From Clostridia bacterium (GTDB taxonomy: Bacteria; Bacillota; Clostridia; Oscillospirales; CAG-272): a stretch of 47,069 nucleotides of DNA. The notes beneath the pieces are model-generated. The model did no database searches, was not told the origin of the DNA, and saw only the letters and a program-made list of their open reading frames with translations. The translations under genes and the position numbers were made by a program. Positions 78 to 41,364 of the stretch are shown here, one piece after another. The stretch is from the NCBI GenBank assembly GCA_017415485.1, contig JAFQGP010000010.1, positions 1 through 47,069 on the forward strand. Reading direction: 5' to 3'. Position 1 is the stretch's first letter; every line of letters starts with the position of its first letter.

Positions 78-202
78 GAAATTTGCCTTGGCAAATTTCT
101 ACCTTTGCATTCCGCTCAGCGGAATATTTAGCTCGCACAAAGCGCGTATTTAGCTTTTGCATAGCAAAAATTTAGCATTTCTCTAACAGAGAAATATTTA
201 GC
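78..202. repeat. Tandem palindrome array, 22-nt period, ATTTAGC linkers
   Basis: Short palindromes with differing sequences alternate with the constant linker atttagc, which starts at 126, 148, 170 and 196. The palindromes are 78-99 (10-bp arms, tt loop), 109-125, a weak one at 134-146, 155-169 (ttttgc/gcaaaa) and 177-195 (atttctct/agagaaat). Unit starts near 111, 133, 155 and 177 are 22 nt apart, about two DNA helix turns. The arms are conserved as pairs but not in sequence, so structure seems to be what is maintained. Function unknown. Confidence 0.7.
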
Positions 203-205
203 TTT

Positions 206-398
206 AGGGGACAGCTTTTTTCCTTAGGCTTCTCCTGGGTAGCGAAGCGGCGATGCGGTATTGAATGACAGTCCGGGGGACTGTCAGACCCGCGGCGTGA
301 CCGAGCCGCAGTGAGACAGCTCCCGCCGTCGGGTTCCCGGAAACGCGCTTGCGCGTTTTTGGGGTTCTGACGCAGCGGGTGATGAGGGGACACCAAGT
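206..398. other. Possible structured RNA or repeat core inside the 5' element
   Basis: This GC-rich core begins and ends with the direct heptamer ggggaca (207-213 and 386-392). It contains consecutive hairpins at 267-285 (8-bp perfect stem, ggg loop), 292-309 and 341-358 (8-bp stem, tt loop, followed by a T run). An open reading frame of 76 codons runs on the minus strand but has no ribosome site and is rich in R, P, S and H, so I do not call it a gene. A structured RNA or an element-specific fold is possible; direction and function cannot be told from one copy. Confidence 0.35.
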
Positions 399-11082: not shown

Positions 11083-12960
11083 ATGAGTGAACTTACTGTA
11101 AAAACCAATGGTATGCGCCATATTGAACACACCGCTGACCTCTGCATCATCGGCGGCGGTCTTACCGGTCTTTGCGCGGCGATCGCTGCGGCTCGCGAGG
11201 GCACCAAGGTAGTTCTTATCCAGGACAGACCCGTGCTTGGCGGCAACGCATCGAGTGAGATCAGAATGTGGGTGCGCGGTGCTCACGGACTTGAAAACCG
11301 CGAGACCGGTATCATCTCCGAGCTTGAAGAAGAAAATATCTACATCAACCCCACCCTCATCCCCACCACCTTCGATAACGTAATGTGGGCAAAGGTCAAG
11401 GCTGAAAAGAACATCACCCTGCTTCTCAACACCACATGCTGTGACGCTGACCGCACCGAAAAGGACGGCGTATCTCACATCACCTCCGTCACCGCTTGGC
11501 AGATGACTACCTACACCTGGCACACCGTTAAGGCTACTTACTTCGCAGACTGCTCGGGCGACTCTATCCTTGCTCCCATTTCGGGCGCAAAATGGCGTGT
11601 AGGCCGCGAGGCTGCTTCGGAATACGGCGAGGCTATGGGCAAGGAAGTTGCGGACAAGAAGACAATGGGTATGTCCTGCCTCATCCAGGCGCGCGAGACC
11701 GATGAGCCCGTGCCCTTCACCGCTCCCGAGTGGGCATACAAATTCGAGACCGACGATGACTTCAACGTTATCAAGGACGCAAGCGGCAACTTTATCGACG
11801 CAAGCACCGGCGTTTCGGGCGTTAAGGTCCAGGACGTAAAGTACCTTGCACGTCCTCACAAGCTCGGCACAAGCGAGACCAACTTCTGGTGGCTCGAGCT
11901 CGGCGGCGAATACGACAGCATTCACGATGCCGAGGAAATGCGCGACGAGCTTCTCAAGATCGCATACGGCATCTGGGATCACGTCAAGAACTACGGCGAC
12001 CACAACGCAGAAAACTGGACTCTCGAGTGGGTCGGCTGCATTCCCGGCAAGAGAGAGAGCCGCCGCTATATCGGCGCACACGTTCTCACCGAGAATGACG
12101 TTGAGGCAGGCGGAAAGTTTGACGACATCGTTGCATTCGGCGGCTGGCCGATGGACGACCACAACCCCGCGGGCTTCCGTTCCTATATGACGGGCGCGCC
12201 CGCATCCAAGCTCTACCCCGCTCCCTCGCCCTACGGCATTCCCTACCGTGTACTTTACGGTCACGAGGTCGACAACCTCTTCTTTGCGGGCAGAAACATC
12301 AGCGCGACTCACGCCGCAATGAGCTCCACAAGAGTTATGGCGACCTGCGCCCTCATCGGTCAGGCAATGGGTACCGCCGCTTCTATCTGCGTAAACGAGG
12401 GCGTAACTCCCCACGGCGTTTACGAGACCAAGATGAAGACCCTCCAGGATAAGCTCCGCGACGCGGGCTGCTACCTCCCCGGAACCGTCCGTGAGATCCC
12501 CGAGCTTACAAAGCAGGCGAAAATCAACCTCCCCGAATCCGAGCTTGCACTCCTTCAGAACGGTATCGAGCGTCCCGATGAAAATATGAATGTCAACTAT
12601 GCAACGCTCAATATCGGCGATGCGCTTGAGTTTGACTTTGGCGAGGAAAAGGAACTGAGCGAGCTCCGTCTTTACTTCGACCCCGACTTCTCGCGCAAGT
12701 CGATCTCTCCCAACAAGAAGATGCGTGTCTTCGCGCAGAAGCTTATGACGGGCAAGGATTTCGTTCCCGTAAAGGTTGCGAACACCCTCGTCAAGTCCTT
12801 CCGCGTTCTTGCCGACGGCAAGGAGATCTTCGCTGAAACCGAGAACCACAACGCTCTGCGCAAGATCGCCCTCGGCGTAAAGGCGAAGAAGCTTACCGTT
12901 ATCTTTGACGAGACAAGAGGAATTGATAAGGTTCATCTGTTCTCGGCGGACGTTAAGTAA
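11083..12960 (+). CDS. FAD-dependent oxidoreductase (FAD_oxidored family) with C-terminal beta-sandwich-like region
   Basis: 625-residue flavoprotein. The dinucleotide-binding GGGLTG is at 24-29, followed by VLGGNASSEIRMWVRGAHG (51-69), typical of the FAD_oxidored (PF12831) family. A second conserved block near 400-430 (FFAGRNISATHAAMSSTRVM) is the C-terminal FAD-contact motif. From about residue 510 onward the protein has a region (GDALEFDFGEEKELSELRLYF) that looks like a discoidin-type carbohydrate-binding beta sandwich; this is a tentative fold call. No signal peptide, so it should be cytosolic. GGAGG is 7 bp upstream, 14 bp after the dehydrogenase stop. It ends the plus-strand run before an array of palindromes and a terminator. 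The substrate is unknown; related genes often sit in sugar or sugar-acid clusters. Confidence 0.85.
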   Translation: MSELTVKTNGMRHIEHTADLCIIGGGLTGLCAAIAAAREGTKVVLIQDRPVLGGNASSEIRMWVRGAHGLENRETGIISELEEENIYINPTLIPTTFDNVMWAKVKAEKNITLLLNTTCCDADRTEKDGVSHITSVTAWQMTTYTWHTVKATYFADCSGDSILAPISGAKWRVGREAASEYGEAMGKEVADKKTMGMSCLIQARETDEPVPFTAPEWAYKFETDDDFNVIKDASGNFIDASTGVSGVKVQDVKYLARPHKLGTSETNFWWLELGGEYDSIHDAEEMRDELLKIAYGIWDHVKNYGDHNAENWTLEWVGCIPGKRESRRYIGAHVLTENDVEAGGKFDDIVAFGGWPMDDHNPAGFRSYMTGAPASKLYPAPSPYGIPYRVLYGHEVDNLFFAGRNISATHAAMSSTRVMATCALIGQAMGTAASICVNEGVTPHGVYETKMKTLQDKLRDAGCYLPGTVREIPELTKQAKINLPESELALLQNGIERPDENMNVNYATLNIGDALEFDFGEEKELSELRLYFDPDFSRKSISPNKKMRVFAQKLMTGKDFVPVKVANTLVKSFRVLADGKEIFAETENHNALRKIALGVKAKKLTVIFDETRGIDKVHLFSADVK

Positions 12961-12965
12961 GTCGG

Positions 12966-13093
12966 CTTACGTCGAATGATAGTCACGCTTCGCGTGAATG
13001 ATGATCTGCCTTGGCGGAATGATGATCACGCTACGCGTGAATGATAGTCCGCCTGCGGCGGAATGAAGGTAGATTTTCGCTGAAGCGAAAATC
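12966..13093. repeat. Tandem palindrome array, 22-nt period, ATGATRR linkers
   Basis: Four 14-15-bp palindromes, tcacgcttcgcgtga (12983), tctgccttggcgga (13005), tcacgctacgcgtga (13026) and tccgcctgcggcgga (13048), are separated by atgatga or atgatag linkers. Starts are 22, 21 and 22 nt apart. A degenerate unit precedes them (12966-12979) and a larger palindrome (13072-13080 with 13085-13093, tgaa loop) follows. Two arm types (acgc and ccgcc) alternate and compensatory changes keep pairing. The architecture matches the array at 78-202, with a different linker. Confidence 0.75.
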
Positions 13094-13101
13094 AAAAAAA
13101 T

Positions 13102-13143
13102 AAATGAGCTAAGCCATCTAAACAATGACTTAGCTCATTTTTT
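13102..13143. terminator. Bidirectional terminator
   Basis: A perfect 12-bp stem (13102-13113 with 13129-13140) has A-rich sequence on the left and a T run on the right, and reads as a terminator in both directions. It lies between the convergent FAD oxidoreductase and DUF3267 genes. Confidence 0.85.
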
Positions 13144-13155
13144 GTAATTAAAAAA

Positions 13156-13923
13156 TCAAAAATCTATCCCCAATTTTTCTAACAAATCATTTTTCCAAAA
13201 CATTGCATCTTCCGTTTCCACGGGCGGTTCTATTCGTTTTGATTTGCCTTCAAAGTATTCGTAATGCTCGTGGAACACTTTTATCTCGCCCTTTTCATTA
13301 CGGACGTATATGTAATGTATCTGCGTAGGTTTGCTTGCATCTTTTGGCAAAAGCCTGACTTGTCTCAAGAATAGACTGTTTCTAGGGAATTTAAGTATGT
13401 AAATTGCAGCATTAATATCGTGAAACGACATCGTCAAATTATTCAAAGCTATATAAATGAGCCATACCGCATAATTGCGAAATATAACGGAAAGGACCAA
13501 GGGCAAAACCGACAGCAAAATCAAAGGAAACAAGATAGATAACGTTTTCTCGGTCTTATTCCATAACACAGGATTCGTACATATATACGCACTCGGATTG
13601 GTGATTCTATTCTCCTTATACGGTGGACGAAAATATATGCCTTCAGTTCCGTTTCCGAATATCGCTGCAAACAAAGCATGACAAAGTTCATGCACCGGCA
13701 GTAAAAGATAGGTAATAGTCAATATCAATATAGCGGAATTTAATTGTTTCAAAAAGAAAGCCACATATATAACATATATAATAAAAATAGCGCCTGTTAC
13801 ACATAACGAAATCTTATATCCACGCTCGTAATTATACTTGGTATTCACCCACTTTGCATTTTCGCAAGATAAGGCATCTCCAAGAAAATAATCGCTCTCA
13901 TGCTTTCCGAAATATATCTTCAT
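13156..13923 (-). CDS. DUF3267-type membrane zinc metalloprotease
   Basis: 255-residue membrane protein. A transmembrane pair at about 38-58 and 62-77 leads into HELCH at 78-82, a zinc-binding HExxH motif; a second hydrophobic pair lies at about 131-170, and SFHDINAA (about 178-185) may supply the third ligand. This layout fits the DUF3267 putative zincin family. It is the last gene of the glycogen operon, 6 bp after the small gene upstream, with AGGAAG before the ATG. Its base composition is clearly more AT-rich than the glg genes, suggesting it joined the operon later. Substrate unknown. Confidence 0.78.
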   Translation of the reverse strand: MKIYFGKHESDYFLGDALSCENAKWVNTKYNYERGYKISLCVTGAIFIIYVIYVAFFLKQLNSAILILTITYLLLPVHELCHALFAAIFGNGTEGIYFRPPYKENRITNPSAYICTNPVLWNKTEKTLSILFPLILLSVLPLVLSVIFRNYAVWLIYIALNNLTMSFHDINAAIYILKFPRNSLFLRQVRLLPKDASKPTQIHYIYVRNEKGEIKVFHEHYEYFEGKSKRIEPPVETEDAMFWKNDLLEKLGIDF

Positions 13924-30081: not shown

Positions 30082-31446
30082 TTAACCCTCATTGCTTTTC
30101 AAAAATTTATCCGCAGAAAATTCTTTTACAAAGCGTTTCAACAAAAAGGCGCAAAAATACGGGAAAGTAAATATCTTTTCTCCGTAGCCTATGTTATTTC
30201 TTGAAAATTTGAATCCGTACTTAACATCTGCATATTTGTCGGAATCTATCAGCGTGCGCAATGATTTTGTCCTTCCGCTTTTTGCTTTTACTTCAATTGG
30301 GATCAAAGAATCTTTGCTTCTGATAAAAAAATCTTCTTCAAGCGTTGAATCTTCGCGTTTAAAGTAATACAGGTTATATCCCTGTTTGGTCAATGCTTCA
30401 CCCACAATATTCTCAAAAAGTGCACCCTTGTAGACACCTAAATTTTTGTTTGCACGAAGGTCTTCTCCCGCTTCTTCATCAAGCAAAGAAACAAGCAATC
30501 CCGTGTCGGAGAAATAGAGTTTAAATTTATCGGGATCGCAATTGCCGTTGAGAGGCAATTCAGGGAAATCAAGACAATAGCATTCATTAACGATACCCGC
30601 ATCAGAAAGCCATTCGGCACACCCCCTGTAATCGCGGAAACGTGCGCCGGAAGCTACACGTGAAAGCTGAAACTTTTTGTTTTCTTTTGCGAGTTGGGGA
30701 GCAATGCTGTTAAAAACGTTAATGATACGTGCTTGATCCAGTCCTTCTGCATATTTGCGAATATCTTCTTTGTAATCCGAAATAAGCTGCTTCTGCGTAT
30801 CCAAAGATCCCTCGAAAGTGCCCTTTGATATATAATCTCTTACAACTGCGGGCATACCGCCGAGTATTGAATAATCAAGGAACAGAGAATGATATATGTC
30901 CATCTCCAACTCATTGAAAGGTCGCATCTCTTTCATATGATCAAGCATATCAAGAACCGTTTCTTCGCCGTATCCCTTCGCCCACAGAAACTCTTCAAAA
31001 TCCATGGAATACATAGTATAATCTGTTTTGTATCCGACGCTGTTGCTTTCGATCCTTCTGTAATTGACTCCCAGCATAGAACCCGAACAGATCACATCAA
31101 AACGACCGTCGATCTTGAAAAATTTCAACGCAGTTGTAATTTCGGGGAATTCGGTGATCTCATCAAAAAACATCAATGTCTTTCCCGGAATAAACCGTTT
31201 ACTCGGATCGATTCTTGAAATATTCTTTATAATGCTGTCAACATCGTAACCGTCAACTATGATTTTTTTATACTTCTCATCCCTGACAAAATTTATCTCT
31301 ACAACGCTTTCATAGTTCTGTTGCGCAAAATGCAAAACCGACTCCGTTTTTCCGATCTGTCGGCACCCCTTTACAATCAAGGGTTTTCTATCGAGATCCG
31401 ATTTCCATCCGGACAGATAATCATCTATCTTTCTCTTTAAATACAT
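30082..31446 (-). CDS. AAA ATPase with DUF4143 domain
   Basis: 454 residues of the widespread ATPase + DUF4143 family: Walker A GCRQIGKT (27-34), Walker B LMFFDE (91-96), sensor-like CSGSMLG (about 115-121), a helical middle, and a C-terminal nuclease-like DUF4143 end with EDFFIRSKDSLIPIEVKAKSG (a D...E-x-K pattern resembling PD-(D/E)XK folds). The function of the family is not established; members are often accessory and mobile. Codon use is more AT-rich than the flanking genes, suggesting transfer. It is monocistronic with its own consensus promoter (TTGACA-17-TATAAT), GGAGG ribosome site and three phased upstream repeats. Confidence 0.88.
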   Translation of the reverse strand: MYLKRKIDDYLSGWKSDLDRKPLIVKGCRQIGKTESVLHFAQQNYESVVEINFVRDEKYKKIIVDGYDVDSIIKNISRIDPSKRFIPGKTLMFFDEITEFPEITTALKFFKIDGRFDVICSGSMLGVNYRRIESNSVGYKTDYTMYSMDFEEFLWAKGYGEETVLDMLDHMKEMRPFNELEMDIYHSLFLDYSILGGMPAVVRDYISKGTFEGSLDTQKQLISDYKEDIRKYAEGLDQARIINVFNSIAPQLAKENKKFQLSRVASGARFRDYRGCAEWLSDAGIVNECYCLDFPELPLNGNCDPDKFKLYFSDTGLLVSLLDEEAGEDLRANKNLGVYKGALFENIVGEALTKQGYNLYYFKREDSTLEEDFFIRSKDSLIPIEVKAKSGRTKSLRTLIDSDKYADVKYGFKFSRNNIGYGEKIFTFPYFCAFLLKRFVKEFSADKFLKSNEG

Positions 31447-31518: not shown

Positions 31519-31597
31519 CACATTTTTTGAGCGTATTTATTTGAATTTTGCACATTTTTTGAGCGAATATTCTCACTATTTGCACATTTTTTGAGTG
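31519..31597 (-). repeat. Three direct repeats spaced exactly 32 bp, upstream of the AAA promoter
   Basis: cacattttttgagcg occurs at 31519-31533 and 31551-31565, and cacattttttgagtg at 31583-31597. Starts are 32 bp apart both times, about three helix turns, so all copies face the same side of DNA. The 17-bp spacers differ. The nearest copy ends 10 bp upstream of the -35 box. The last copy continues into aaatgtgc, forming a partial inverted repeat. The pattern fits a binding array for a regulator; which one is unknown. Confidence 0.75.
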
Positions 31598-31635
31598 AAA
31601 TGTGCTTGTGAATCAATTTTTCTTCCCAACATAAC

Positions 31636-38632: not shown

Positions 38633-40321
38633 ATGAAAAAGATGTTTATCTGCCTTTTGAGCATAATTATGCTTATCTCGACGCTTCCTTTTGTGACTGC
38701 GGCGGCTTCGGGCACTCCGATATCGACCGCGGATGAATTTATGGCTATGTCGCCGACGGGGGAATATTATCTCGCGGCGGATATTACTTTGAAATCGACC
38801 TATCGAAAGACATTTGAAGGCAGACTTGACGGAAACGGCAAGACCTTGACCATCTCCGCGCCAATATTCGAGGATTTCTCGGGCAAGGTCGAAGATCTCA
38901 CCATCGAAGGCAAAGTCATTGCCACGGATGAAGACGCTTCCGCATTCGCGCTGACCTCGTCGAAGGGATTTGAAGCGATAAACTGCACAAACAACGCAAA
39001 AGTCACGGTTATGGGCTACGCGAAATACGTATCGGGCTTCGTAGGCACCTGCGAGGGCGCTGCCGTAAAGTTCACAAACTGCGTCAACAACGGCGCGATA
39101 TACCTTGATTCGACCGCAGACGAAAAACAATGTGTGGGCGGATTCGGTTCGATCATCGACACGGTCATAATGAACGGCTGTACCAACAACGGTAATGTAT
39201 ATTTGAAAGGCAGCAGAGGAATTGCAGGAGGTTTTGTCGCAAGAGTTGCGATGAATGCGGGTGACAACTGCCTTGAAATTTACAACTCGACCAACAACGG
39301 AAATATCACGGTTGAGGACACGTATATTGCCGCGGATGGCACGCAAAGCACCGGAGCTGCCGATGCGGGCGGAATTGTCGGTAACGTCGGTGTAAAAGGA
39401 AACAGCGGAGTTTACAAGATATGGGGTTGCACCAACAACGGCGACATCGACGGTCAATACCGCACAGGTGGACTTGTCGGGTATTGTTATGCAAGCCAAT
39501 CAAGCGCATTCATTGATATGCAGTTTTGCATCAATACTGGAAACGTCACTTACGGGCGAACAAAAAAATCCGACGAAAATAAAGATAAAAAGTATTACGA
39601 TTACGCTTCATCATTTGTTGCCTACACCAACTCTGCCTTCACAACGATCAAATATTGTATTGATACAGGAAACATTACAAAACGCGAAGGTGCAATAACC
39701 GCTTTTGATTTCAATATTTTTGTCGGAAGCTCTTCTGCTGACACAAGTATGTACGATGTCAACGCCGTCTATATGATTCACAAAGATCAATATAAGTATT
39801 TTTCTTACACCGATCACAACTTGGCTGCATCTTATGCCAATACATACTTATTTGAGCCCTATGAGGGCGTCATCCACACCTCTCCCGAGGATATAACCTC
39901 CGGCAAGGTGGCACACGAAATCAACCTCGCGGCGAAAAATGACCCGTTCTACTCTTCTGCTTTTGATGAAGGCTTTGCTTTTTATCAAAAGATTGGTGAG
40001 GACGCACTTCCCTCGGTTGACCAAAATCGCGGTTTGGTAGTCCTTTCGGGTGACACTTATGTAAACGGCGAGAGCGTAACCGAAAAGACCCAACCGGAAG
40101 CTACAAAATGCTGTCAAGGCGATGTCATCCTCGTAACTACCCAAATCCCCGAAACCACTCCCCCACCCTCGGTGACAACTTCACCCGAAACCGAGCCACC
40201 CGTGCAAAGCGGTTGCGGAGGGTTCTCGTGCTATGCGATTCTTATTGTCATAGTATGTACCTCGTGCCTTTGGAAAAAGTGGACAGTGGTTAGTGGACAG
40301 TGGACAGAAAGATGCGAATGA
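38633..40321 (+). CDS. Secreted/surface repeat protein (right-handed beta-helix type)
   Basis: 562 residues. A signal peptide (about 1-25, MLISTLPFVTAAA) leads into repeats of the type C-x-N-N-G-x-I/V: NCTNNAKVTV, NCVNNGAIYL, GCTNNGNVYL, NSTNNGNITV, GCTNNGDIDG, FCINTGNVTY, YCIDTGNITK. Each is preceded by a glycine-rich turn (GGFVG, GGIVG, GGLVG), resembling GLUG or pectate-lyase-type helices; no catalytic site is visible. A Pro/Thr-rich stretch (TTPPPSVTTSPETEPP) and a hydrophobic segment (about 530-548) follow, so it is probably anchored at the surface. The last dozen residues (TVVSGQWTERC) are encoded by an inverted repeat arm, so the natural C-terminus was probably changed by it. Confidence 0.75.
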   Translation: MKKMFICLLSIIMLISTLPFVTAAASGTPISTADEFMAMSPTGEYYLAADITLKSTYRKTFEGRLDGNGKTLTISAPIFEDFSGKVEDLTIEGKVIATDEDASAFALTSSKGFEAINCTNNAKVTVMGYAKYVSGFVGTCEGAAVKFTNCVNNGAIYLDSTADEKQCVGGFGSIIDTVIMNGCTNNGNVYLKGSRGIAGGFVARVAMNAGDNCLEIYNSTNNGNITVEDTYIAADGTQSTGAADAGGIVGNVGVKGNSGVYKIWGCTNNGDIDGQYRTGGLVGYCYASQSSAFIDMQFCINTGNVTYGRTKKSDENKDKKYYDYASSFVAYTNSAFTTIKYCIDTGNITKREGAITAFDFNIFVGSSSADTSMYDVNAVYMIHKDQYKYFSYTDHNLAASYANTYLFEPYEGVIHTSPEDITSGKVAHEINLAAKNDPFYSSAFDEGFAFYQKIGEDALPSVDQNRGLVVLSGDTYVNGESVTEKTQPEATKCCQGDVILVTTQIPETTPPPSVTTSPETEPPVQSGCGGFSCYAILIVIVCTSCLWKKWTVVSGQWTERCE

Positions 40322-40516
40322 TATTTTATTTGTATTTGCAATCCATTGCGCCGACTAATAATTTAATATACAAAAAACTCGGATATTTAGAAGTTTCGCT
40401 TCAAAATATCCGAGTTTTTCTTATTGTGGTTTTGTACTGTACGGAGTTTTCTCAATGCCGCATAAAATTATTTGTGCCCGCATCTTTCTGTCCACTGTCC
40501 ACTGACCACTGTTCAC
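40279..40516. repeat. 238-bp inverted-repeat element between convergent genes
   Basis: 40279-40316 and 40479-40516 are reverse complements in 36 of 38 positions. Each arm contains tandem tggacagtgg-type units. The 40-160 bp between are AT-rich and hold a perfect 16-bp terminator stem. The left arm encodes the last residues of the secreted protein; the right arm holds the stop codon of the DUF3737 gene. No coding content. It is consistent with a MITE-like or BIME-like element serving as common 3' end. Confidence 0.75.
40373..40419. terminator. Bidirectional terminator in the inverted-repeat element
   Basis: A perfect 16-bp stem, 40373-40388 with 40404-40419, loop 15 nt that itself folds. A5 at the left and T5 at the right make it work for both convergent genes. 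Confidence 0.85.
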
Positions 40517-41364
40517 TCGTTTACGACGATCTCGCAATCGCAATCCTTCACGCTTCCCTCGCGGACAATCTCACCGATGGAATCTGCGATGATCTTGCCC
40601 GAAAGCGGGTTCTTGACCGATACGATATTGCCCTTGACGGTTGCATCTACCTCGGAATACTCGAAGGAGAGTTCGCAACCCTCCGTGGTGCAATTAATCA
40701 GCTTCAGTCCCTTGCAATAGCAAAGCGGCTGGGTGCCGACGATGTGGCAGTTGATGAATGTGACGTTTTCCGAATACCATGCAAGATATTCTCCTTTGAC
40801 GACGCTGTCACGGACGGTAACGTTCTTCGCGTGCCAAAAAGCATCCTTGGTGTTGAGAGTCGAATTCGAGATCTCGACGTTTTCGGTGTACTGGAAGGAA
40901 TATTTTCCGTTGAGAGTGAAATTGTCAAGCTTGATATCGCGGCTCTCGAAAAGGAAATACTCGCTTGTGACCTCGGAGTGCTCTATATGTACGCCGCGGC
41001 ATCTCCAGCCGAATTCGGTGGATATTGCGGTGCAGTTTTTGAAGCTCATATTCTCGCATTCGCGCAGAGCCTTGACGTCAAGGATCTCGCAATCCTCGAA
41101 CTTTCCGTTCTTACAATACCAAAGCGGCGCGCGAACGCCACGGTCGAGCTTGCATTCGCGCAGAGAGAAATCGGTACAATGCCACATCGGATAGCGCAGG
41201 CGGAAGTTGCAACGCAGAACATCGATGCCGATGCATTCCTTGAGTGCGGATTCGCCGTCCTCGGCTCCTTCAAAATTGCAGGCAACAACATCGGCGTTGC
41301 GGAGGCCGTAAAGCGCGCGCTCCTCGCCTGTGGTTATGTTTTCGTAAAGTTTTCTTTCGGTCAT
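40513..41364 (-). CDS. DUF3737 family protein
   Basis: 283 residues from ATG 41364, 2 bp after the amidohydrolase stop. Made of repeated short strands with the rhythm of a right-handed beta-helix (ADVVACNFEG, LRCNFRLRY, FEDCEILD, MSFKNCTAIS, VEISNSTLN, VTFINCHIVG, LKLINCTTEG), matching the DUF3737 (pectate-lyase-like) family. No signal peptide. Catalytic activity is unproven. The stop codon falls in the right arm of a repeat element. Last of a four-gene minus-strand operon. Confidence 0.85.
   Translation of the reverse strand: MTERKLYENITTGEERALYGLRNADVVACNFEGAEDGESALKECIGIDVLRCNFRLRYPMWHCTDFSLRECKLDRGVRAPLWYCKNGKFEDCEILDVKALRECENMSFKNCTAISTEFGWRCRGVHIEHSEVTSEYFLFESRDIKLDNFTLNGKYSFQYTENVEISNSTLNTKDAFWHAKNVTVRDSVVKGEYLAWYSENVTFINCHIVGTQPLCYCKGLKLINCTTEGCELSFEYSEVDATVKGNIVSVKNPLSGKIIADSIGEIVREGSVKDCDCEIVVNE

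Follow-up and report, generated by a model that had tools for sequence, protein, structure and literature searches.

Several described repeat systems come close to the array reported here. Cyanobacterial STRRs are built of a 7-nt unit, lie between genes and form many arrays per genome, as in the present case. The SDR of Nostoc, treated by Elhai in 2008, are reportedly very small hairpins with compensatory changes that occur within tandem heptamers and minitransposons, and are said to form families of 21-27 nt whose sequence is conserved. Streptococcus BOX elements are modular and combine a variable number of internal units with a fixed end module, as here, but their internal units measure ~45 nt and are conserved in sequence, unlike those described below. 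Heptanucleotide repeats in bacteria are an old observation (PMC4679880), and SDRs are cited in PMC3116915. Gut-1 RNA, which Rfam classes as an sRNA gene, was published in 2010 as a candidate noncoding RNA, found in gut metagenomes only and most likely unaffiliated with mRNAs (PMC2864571); no further paper mentioning its accession was found in the literature searched. Gut-1 is the only part of the array family described here that was catalogued before.

The array behind the FAD-dependent oxidoreductase gene

The array is placed between the stop codon of an FAD-dependent oxidoreductase gene and a terminator. Five GC-rich hairpins of 14-15 nt, joined by ATGATRR linkers, span positions 12962-13062 of the window (the whole stretch of 47,069 nt that was analysed), and the 3' end, formed by ATGAAGGTA and an AT-rich hairpin, reaches 13093:

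78-202, - strand: sister array, linker GCTAAAT (read on the - strand), tail AAGGTA + GAAATTTGCCAAGGCAAATTTC; within a copy of a ~300-bp inverted-repeat element, end at 378-394
11083-12960, + strand: upstream gene, FAD-dependent oxidoreductase (PF12831; ORF list; Pfam E 4.4e-88)
12958-12960, + strand: TAA stop codon of this gene (ORF list)
12962-12975, + strand: hairpin 1, TCGGC-TTAC-GTCGA (sequence; same-position hairpin TCGGCTTCGCCGA in the G001 orthologue)
12976-12982, + strand: linker ATGATAG (sequence)
12983-12997, + strand: hairpin 2, TCACGC-TTC-GCGTGA (sequence, palindrome scan)
12998-13004, + strand: linker ATGATGA (sequence)
13005-13018, + strand: hairpin 3, TCTGCC-TT-GGCGGA, one G-U pair (sequence)
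13019-13025, + strand: linker ATGATGA (sequence)
13026-13040, + strand: hairpin 4, TCACGC-TAC-GCGTGA (sequence, palindrome scan)
13041-13047, + strand: linker ATGATAG (sequence)
13048-13062, + strand: hairpin 5, TCCGCC-TGC-GGCGGA (sequence, palindrome scan)
13063-13071, + strand: tail lead ATGAAGGTA with the AAGG tail signature (AAGG follows the last hairpin in 32/43 arrays)
13072-13093, + strand: AT-rich tail hairpin GATTTTCGC-TGAA-GCGAAAATC (palindrome scan; tail common to hairpin and plain heptamer arrays)
13103-13143, no strand assigned: terminator-like hairpin AATGAGCTAAG...CTTAGCTCATTTTTT between two convergent genes (sequence)
13156-13923, - strand: convergent ORF beyond the terminator-like hairpin (ORF list)

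The unit starts at 12983, 13005, 13026 and 13048 and the ATGATGA and ATGATAG linkers are exactly as given in the initial annotation (sequence, palindrome scan), but a further unit, TCGGC-TTAC-GTCGA, lies upstream at 12962-12975, and the steps become 21, 22, 21 and 22. The array does reach the proposed end at 13093, although the final part is a separate module, ATGAAGGTA (13063-13071) and the AT-rich hairpin at 13072-13093, and holds no further unit. The alternation of two arm types that had been described is a loose one only, the arms being TCGGC, TCACGC, TCTGCC (with one G-U pair), TCACGC and TCCGCC. TRF detects the array independently, with periods of 22 (score 88) and 43 (score 130). An Rfam scan of the window returned no family reaching threshold, and a search of the window for tRNA and tmRNA genes returned none. 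Matches to other Rfam families at permissive thresholds (sR5, SNORD101, CRISPR-DR20, MIR405) lie far under cut-off and were set aside as chance. A CRISPR assignment does not fit either, given repeats of 7 nt, palindromic 'spacers' and no Rfam CRISPR family at threshold.

The sister array at 78-202 had been thought to share no sequence with this one. That does not hold entirely: its - strand end, GCAAAGGTA + GAAATTTGCCAAGGCAAATTTC, is the counterpart of ATGAAGGTA + GATTTTCGC..GCGAAAATC. The accompanying suggestion that one process or pressure lies behind both arrays holds at the level of design (hairpin size, 7-nt linker, a tail of AAGGTA and an AT-rich hairpin, all shared by many further arrays in this and related genomes), but the mode of spread differs. 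Copies of the 78-202 type number ~15, are near-identical, keep the same order of hairpins and belong to a ~300-bp element bounded by terminal inverted repeats GGTGTCCCCTCATCACC, whereas in ATGATRR arrays every hairpin is different and the site is a 3'UTR. A MITE test saw no terminal inverted repeats around 12962-13093; they are present for other copies of the 78-202 array. At window positions 78-394, where the linkers read ATTTAGC, one terminal inverted repeat GGTGTCCCCTCATCACC lies at 378-394 (- strand), while the opposite end is either absent or would lie before the first position of the contig. The hairpin-array detector misses the array at 78-202 because of one imperfect hairpin there.

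The arms of these hairpins vary freely and with compensation. At arm pairs 2-4, 16-20 of 24 are Watson-Crick, against column-shuffle means of 7-12; units were defined here by their linkers only, which avoids circularity, and the set includes some non-array matches, which makes the comparison conservative. Neighbouring hairpins never have identical arms (0/108 observed, 8.6 +/- 2.7 expected). For GTTAARR arrays, 0/130 arm pairs are identical within arrays against 9.1% between arrays, while for ATGATRR alone the figures are 3/53 against 7%, which is not significant. Linker identity is 0.86 within and 0.63 between arrays (p 0.0005), a difference that is inflated, as the detector itself demands similar linkers. 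Uniform linkers beside non-repeating hairpins in one array are not what plain tandem duplication predicts. The loops are biased as well: on the sense strand the sequence TNC makes up 98 of the 122 triloops, nearly always closed by C-G, and tetraloops are mostly TTGC or TTAC, so that the opposite strand carries C(GNA)G and GNRA.

Dispersal, heptamer basis and gene context

With 12961-13100 as BLAST query, the array's own genome (2.69 Mb, 154 contigs) contains 22 further places at 69-91% identity, 23 with the array itself. In the best matches the arms differ yet stay complementary, the linker type is the same, and often two convergent arrays flank one terminator. A covariance model of the ATGATRR form finds 44 matches in this genome, the window array scoring 100 bits. 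Arrays were also sought de novo, as rows of at least three hairpins with similar linkers. In 382 kb of this genome 23 strong tandem-hairpin arrays came up, and dinucleotide shuffles gave 0. A few of these 23 fall outside the coexisting linker types ATGATRR, GTTAARR, GTGAAAT, GTGATAT and GCTAAAT. Other genera and families of the order have the same design with linkers such as ATGATG, GTGATAT, ATGAAGC and ATGATTT. Periods of ~22 nt do occur in related genomes, their absence from which had been named as grounds for doubting the pattern. The linker type, in contrast to what had been proposed for testing, is not genome-specific, with at least five types in the own genome, ATGATRR and GTTAARR recurring in genomes of the same genus and the Gut-1 linker spanning the order. 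The array pattern was matched in three MAGs, and the related records are MAGs from sheep, yak and cattle colon. All the genomes are fragmented MAGs, and the statistics draw on 763 kb of the own genome's 2.69 Mb, together with 341 kb from G012 and 200 kb from G001.

Arrays with and without hairpins share one basic unit. A search for the tail of AAGG and an AT-rich hairpin showed that, at the same kind of site, what precedes it is either a hairpin array or a plain 7-nt tandem repeat (GTTGCTA, AGTGAAA, AATGCAA, AGAGTGC). The AAGG tail comes after 21/37 hairpin arrays and 28/63 arrays made of heptamers only, the figure for random points being 18/8000, and AAGGTAG stands ahead of the tail hairpin in 11/32 tails. 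In 763 kb, 51 intergenic arrays have a period of 7, where periods 5, 6 and 8-12 yield 1-5, and most heptamers match A[AG]T[GT]NNN. From the common tail and site and the excess at period 7, it follows that the 22 nt of one period are made up of a 7-nt repeat and a 15-nt hairpin and that the heptamer is the basic unit. Conservation of stop codons in the linker (TGA-TRR) was considered as a constraint and lost weight, since AATGCAA and AGAGTGC arrays have no stop and ATGATGG occurs. In the window, convergent plain heptamer arrays (AGTGGAC/AGTGGTT) lie at 40276-40308 (+) and 40484-40520 (-) around a terminator at ~40373-40420, and several further convergent heptamer pairs (AGTGGACAGAAAGATGCG) were met in the sampled genome parts.

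Both kinds of array mostly follow genes in the sense orientation. Among non-MITE hairpin arrays, 27/37 are sense-oriented and lie no more than 60 nt from a stop codon, compared with 15.7% of random intergenic points (p 1e-14); for heptamer arrays the figure is 34/63 against the same 15.7% (p 3e-12), gene context and null both deriving from a simple hexamer-based gene caller. Convergent gene pairs often bear one array each, on either side of their common terminator, and the partners are of like repeat type in 17/21 pairs where 4.1 are expected, an approximate count in which heptamer types were set by simple patterns. Separately, in loci L098-L107 and L126, Gut-1-type or GCTAAAT arrays come immediately after tRNA genes with their terminators, and in many cases the array is repeated next to itself in inverted form. 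Two hairpins with 12-13-bp arms span a stop codon just before an array (L192:11598-11626 and L204:2732-2761); the 5' arm is formed by the gene's last codons and the 3' arm is their reverse complement. Only two other stop-spanning hairpins (8-9 bp) were seen among 579 genes.

Gut-1 belongs to the same design. The window array scores 20.7 bits against the Gut-1 model (RF01706) at 12974-13052, under the 50-bit Rfam gathering cut-off, and the Gut-1 consensus of three tandem short-loop hairpins with UGAAAU linkers resembles it in architecture, the window array having ATGATRR as linker instead. Genuine Gut-1 is present in the own genome (27 matches at E <= 1, best 75.6 bits) and exceeds the Rfam cut-off in 52/147 genomes of the order. 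The own-genome copies that were read have an AAGG/TTAAGG-type tail; one of these copies begins right behind a stop codon, and some Gut-1 copies lie just behind the terminators of tRNA genes. Gut-1, in the copies read here, is the GTGAAAT linker variant of the same repeat design.

Orthologous sites differ between close relatives. After the FAD-oxidoreductase orthologue of G001 (92% amino acid identity) the first three hairpins, TCGGC, TCACGC and TCTGCC, are kept with GTGATAA linkers; the orthologue in G005 (91%) has five hairpins with mostly ATGATRR-like linkers, and that in G012 (95% amino acid identity) is followed by four heptamers plus the tail, hairpins being absent. Relatives at 62-71% amino acid identity have no array after the orthologous gene. 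At another gene, the own genome and G012 have hairpins TCTCGCTTNCGCGAGA and TCGGCTTGCGCCGA in common, while all three linkers differ (ATGATRR against GTTAARR). Two heptamer-only orthologous sites have changed heptamer type wholesale, and a GTGAAAT array with tail, present between two genes in the own genome, is missing between the same genes in G001. These comparisons indicate that arrays are gained and lost quickly and that linkers change in concert: turnover is fast and linkers switch wholesale. Between species at 91-95% protein identity, orthologous genes can have a hairpin array, a heptamer-only array or none, which amounts to a natural experiment and allows one to ask how bacterial palindromic repeats originate and whether they act on RNA or on DNA.

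Other repeats were met in the same sequences. A further inverted-repeat family, AAGGAGC-AAAATCTCCCC..GGGGAGATTTTACTCCTTC, is dispersed over L194:7247, L202:2177, L220:10092 and other places, and a constant block (CTTAAGGCAGAGCCTTAAGTCG...) is often its partner. At window positions 31519-31599 a 32-nt tandem repeat (CACATTTTTTGAGCGAATATTCTCAATATTTG), possibly operator-like, is present in two and a half copies; it lies upstream of the gene at 30082-31446 on the - strand. In G012, a six-hairpin array at L262:17754-17877 has CAGCC and CAACGC arms in strict alternation and TATATCAT linkers.

Origin and role of the arrays

The reading we prefer is that the array is a slippage-made, RNA-protective 3'UTR repeat, which taken as a whole has about an even chance of being right. 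Location, structure and turnover of the arrays are shown by the comparisons above, whereas their origin, upkeep and function are inferred. The account of design and kinship is very probably correct: the array is a 3'UTR repeat that runs from stop codon to terminator, with a tandem 7-nt unit (here AATGATR), one 13-17-nt hairpin per junction and AAGG plus an AT-rich hairpin as its close. Growth by slippage or template switching is somewhat favoured; lengthening and shortening would take place at the DNA level between heptamers, which would explain why linkers are uniform within an array. For upkeep, each hairpin would have to fold on its own, with identical neighbours cross-folding or recombining away, and this could account for both the retained pairing and the absence of identical neighbours. 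From position alone we infer that the arrays are transcribed. A protective role at the RNA level is a tentative proposal, in which independent hairpins upstream of the terminator would act like REP-type stem-loops, slow 3'->5' decay and insulate the coding end. In Bacillus cereus, mRNA half-life correlates with a transcribed repeat, bcr3 (PMC3446304), and by analogy such a role is plausible in Gram-positives. Against the preferred reading, sites with plain heptamers suggest that a given gene can do without hairpins, and the quick gain and loss between species at 91-95% protein identity would suit neutral or selfish DNA no less than functional DNA. The arm-difference effect is clear for GTTAARR but not for ATGATRR alone.

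Possible but doubtful is an origin as very small selfish elements, with the 13-17-nt hairpin as a mobile unit that inserts at the junctions of heptamers and into other repeats, a mode of life already proposed for cyanobacterial SDR. The like tail behind heptamer arrays with and without hairpins fits this, as do the four heptamers of the G012 orthologue where relatives bear junction hairpins, the recurrence of a small arm set (TCGGC, TCGCGC, TTCGCC, TCTCGC, TTGCC...) under different linkers and the presence of a hairpin array inside an inverted-repeat element. A check for SDR-type mobility, however, comparing the hairpin-free heptamers of G012 with the hairpin arrays of relatives, saw no clean single insertion: none into otherwise identical heptamers was found, and in the sole comparison the heptamers had changed too. 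Side-by-side double insertions would also be expected, yet identical neighbours are absent. No enzyme was found, and we know of none that mobilises such hairpins. Mobility of another kind, in which a RAYT (Y1) transposase would spread palindromes of the REP/BIME type, is extremely improbable, despite small GC-rich intergenic palindromes that lie mostly by gene 3' ends as REPs do (PMC3733652) and an AAGGTAG before the tail hairpin, in 11/32 tails, that resembles the GTAG tag. Membership was rejected on tag, sequence and transposase. The unit hairpins have no GTAG/CGTC tag, and palindrome sequence is not conserved among copies. The own genome has a single, borderline Y1 protein (23.2 bits), which is not flanked by arrays, and no Y1 match was obtained in 10/12 other genus members, which are incomplete MAGs and all have linker-motif matches. 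REP/BIME had been named in advance as an example of a known repeat that might explain the array; neither a consistent GTAG tag nor a conserved palindrome nor a RAYT accompanies it. The Y1-like protein at G000:C128 was dismissed as array-linked, as the nearby linker match sits inside a coding gene.

The uniform linkers and diverse hairpins within an array could also mark a structured regulatory RNA or protein platform, in which single-stranded linkers, spaced by hairpins every ~22 nt, recruit a multivalent RNA-binding protein; in addition, linker TGA/TAA may stop read-through ribosomes in all frames. The mostly sense 3'UTR siting is in keeping with this, TGA or TAA is present in the main linkers of the hairpin arrays and the 22-nt period shifts frame, and heptamer repeats elsewhere have been proposed as S1, Csp or Csr binding sites (PMC4679880). 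We consider it quite unlikely, because many unrelated linkers in one genome, switching between orthologues, are hard to reconcile with one specific protein, and several heptamer-only arrays (AATGCAA, AGAGTGC) have no stop codon in the repeat. That the arrays are independent noncoding RNA genes, the class to which Gut-1 was originally assigned, is highly improbable: the Rfam sRNA-gene entry and the judgement of the 2010 paper, most likely a noncoding RNA unaffiliated with mRNAs (PMC2864571), are set against dozens of divergent copies per genome, many of them right behind stop codons or tRNA-gene terminators, and turnover between close relatives.

A DNA-level process that is so far uncharacterised is unlikely. 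In this scheme a single strand would fold back into an ultra-stable C(GNA)G mini-hairpin and then be copied, so that each heptamer junction would gain a fresh palindrome. C-G-closed GNA triloops count among the extraordinarily stable DNA mini-hairpins. Such mini-hairpins exist as a class, with a Tm of 76.5 C for a 2-bp stem (PMC10527192). The loop bias, which is the pattern of very stable DNA hairpins on the template strand, points to single-stranded DNA rather than mRNA and is the chief observation that speaks against a reading at the RNA level only, but folding with DNA parameters gave almost no strand difference in favour of the antisense-strand hairpin, so the loop argument rests on the literature. 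The first hairpins at L192:11598-11626 and L204:2732-2761, in which the 3' arm is the reverse complement of the last codons, are what snap-back copying would leave. If it proved true, the arrays would be among the smallest self-propagating sequence systems known, and Gut-1 would be explained.

Comparison with known repeat systems

REP, BIME and REPIN elements resemble the arrays as short palindromes near gene 3' ends, and differ from them in that the present arrays have fixed 7-nt linkers, sense orientation and no associated RAYT. Compared with the Nostoc SDR, the hairpins here measure 13-17 nt, have free arms and occur one per junction.

Heptanucleotide tandem repeats (STRR/LSSR) consist of tandem 7-nt units that are uniform within an array, as is the case here, but their units are directly adjacent, whereas hairpins of 14-15 nt intervene in this array. 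Bacterial LSSRs and the TAACTGA repeats of Beggiatoaceae (PMC4679880) likewise have a 7-nt unit, an intergenic location and many arrays per genome, and the other strand of TAACTGA (AGTTATC) fits the ARTKNNN pattern of the present heptamers. TAACTGA repeats, as published, are found mostly ahead of start codons and lack junction hairpins (PMC4679880), while the arrays described here follow stop codons and end in AAGG and a hairpin tail. To the published heptamer repeats the present arrays add the 3'UTR tail and, at each junction, a hairpin.

Gut-1 differs in its GTGAAAT linker, where this array has ATGATRR, and in having been described as a metagenomic noncoding RNA and not as a dispersed 3'UTR repeat. 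An order-wide class of 3'UTR hairpin-heptamer arrays in uncultured gut Clostridia would reclassify this RNA family of 2010.
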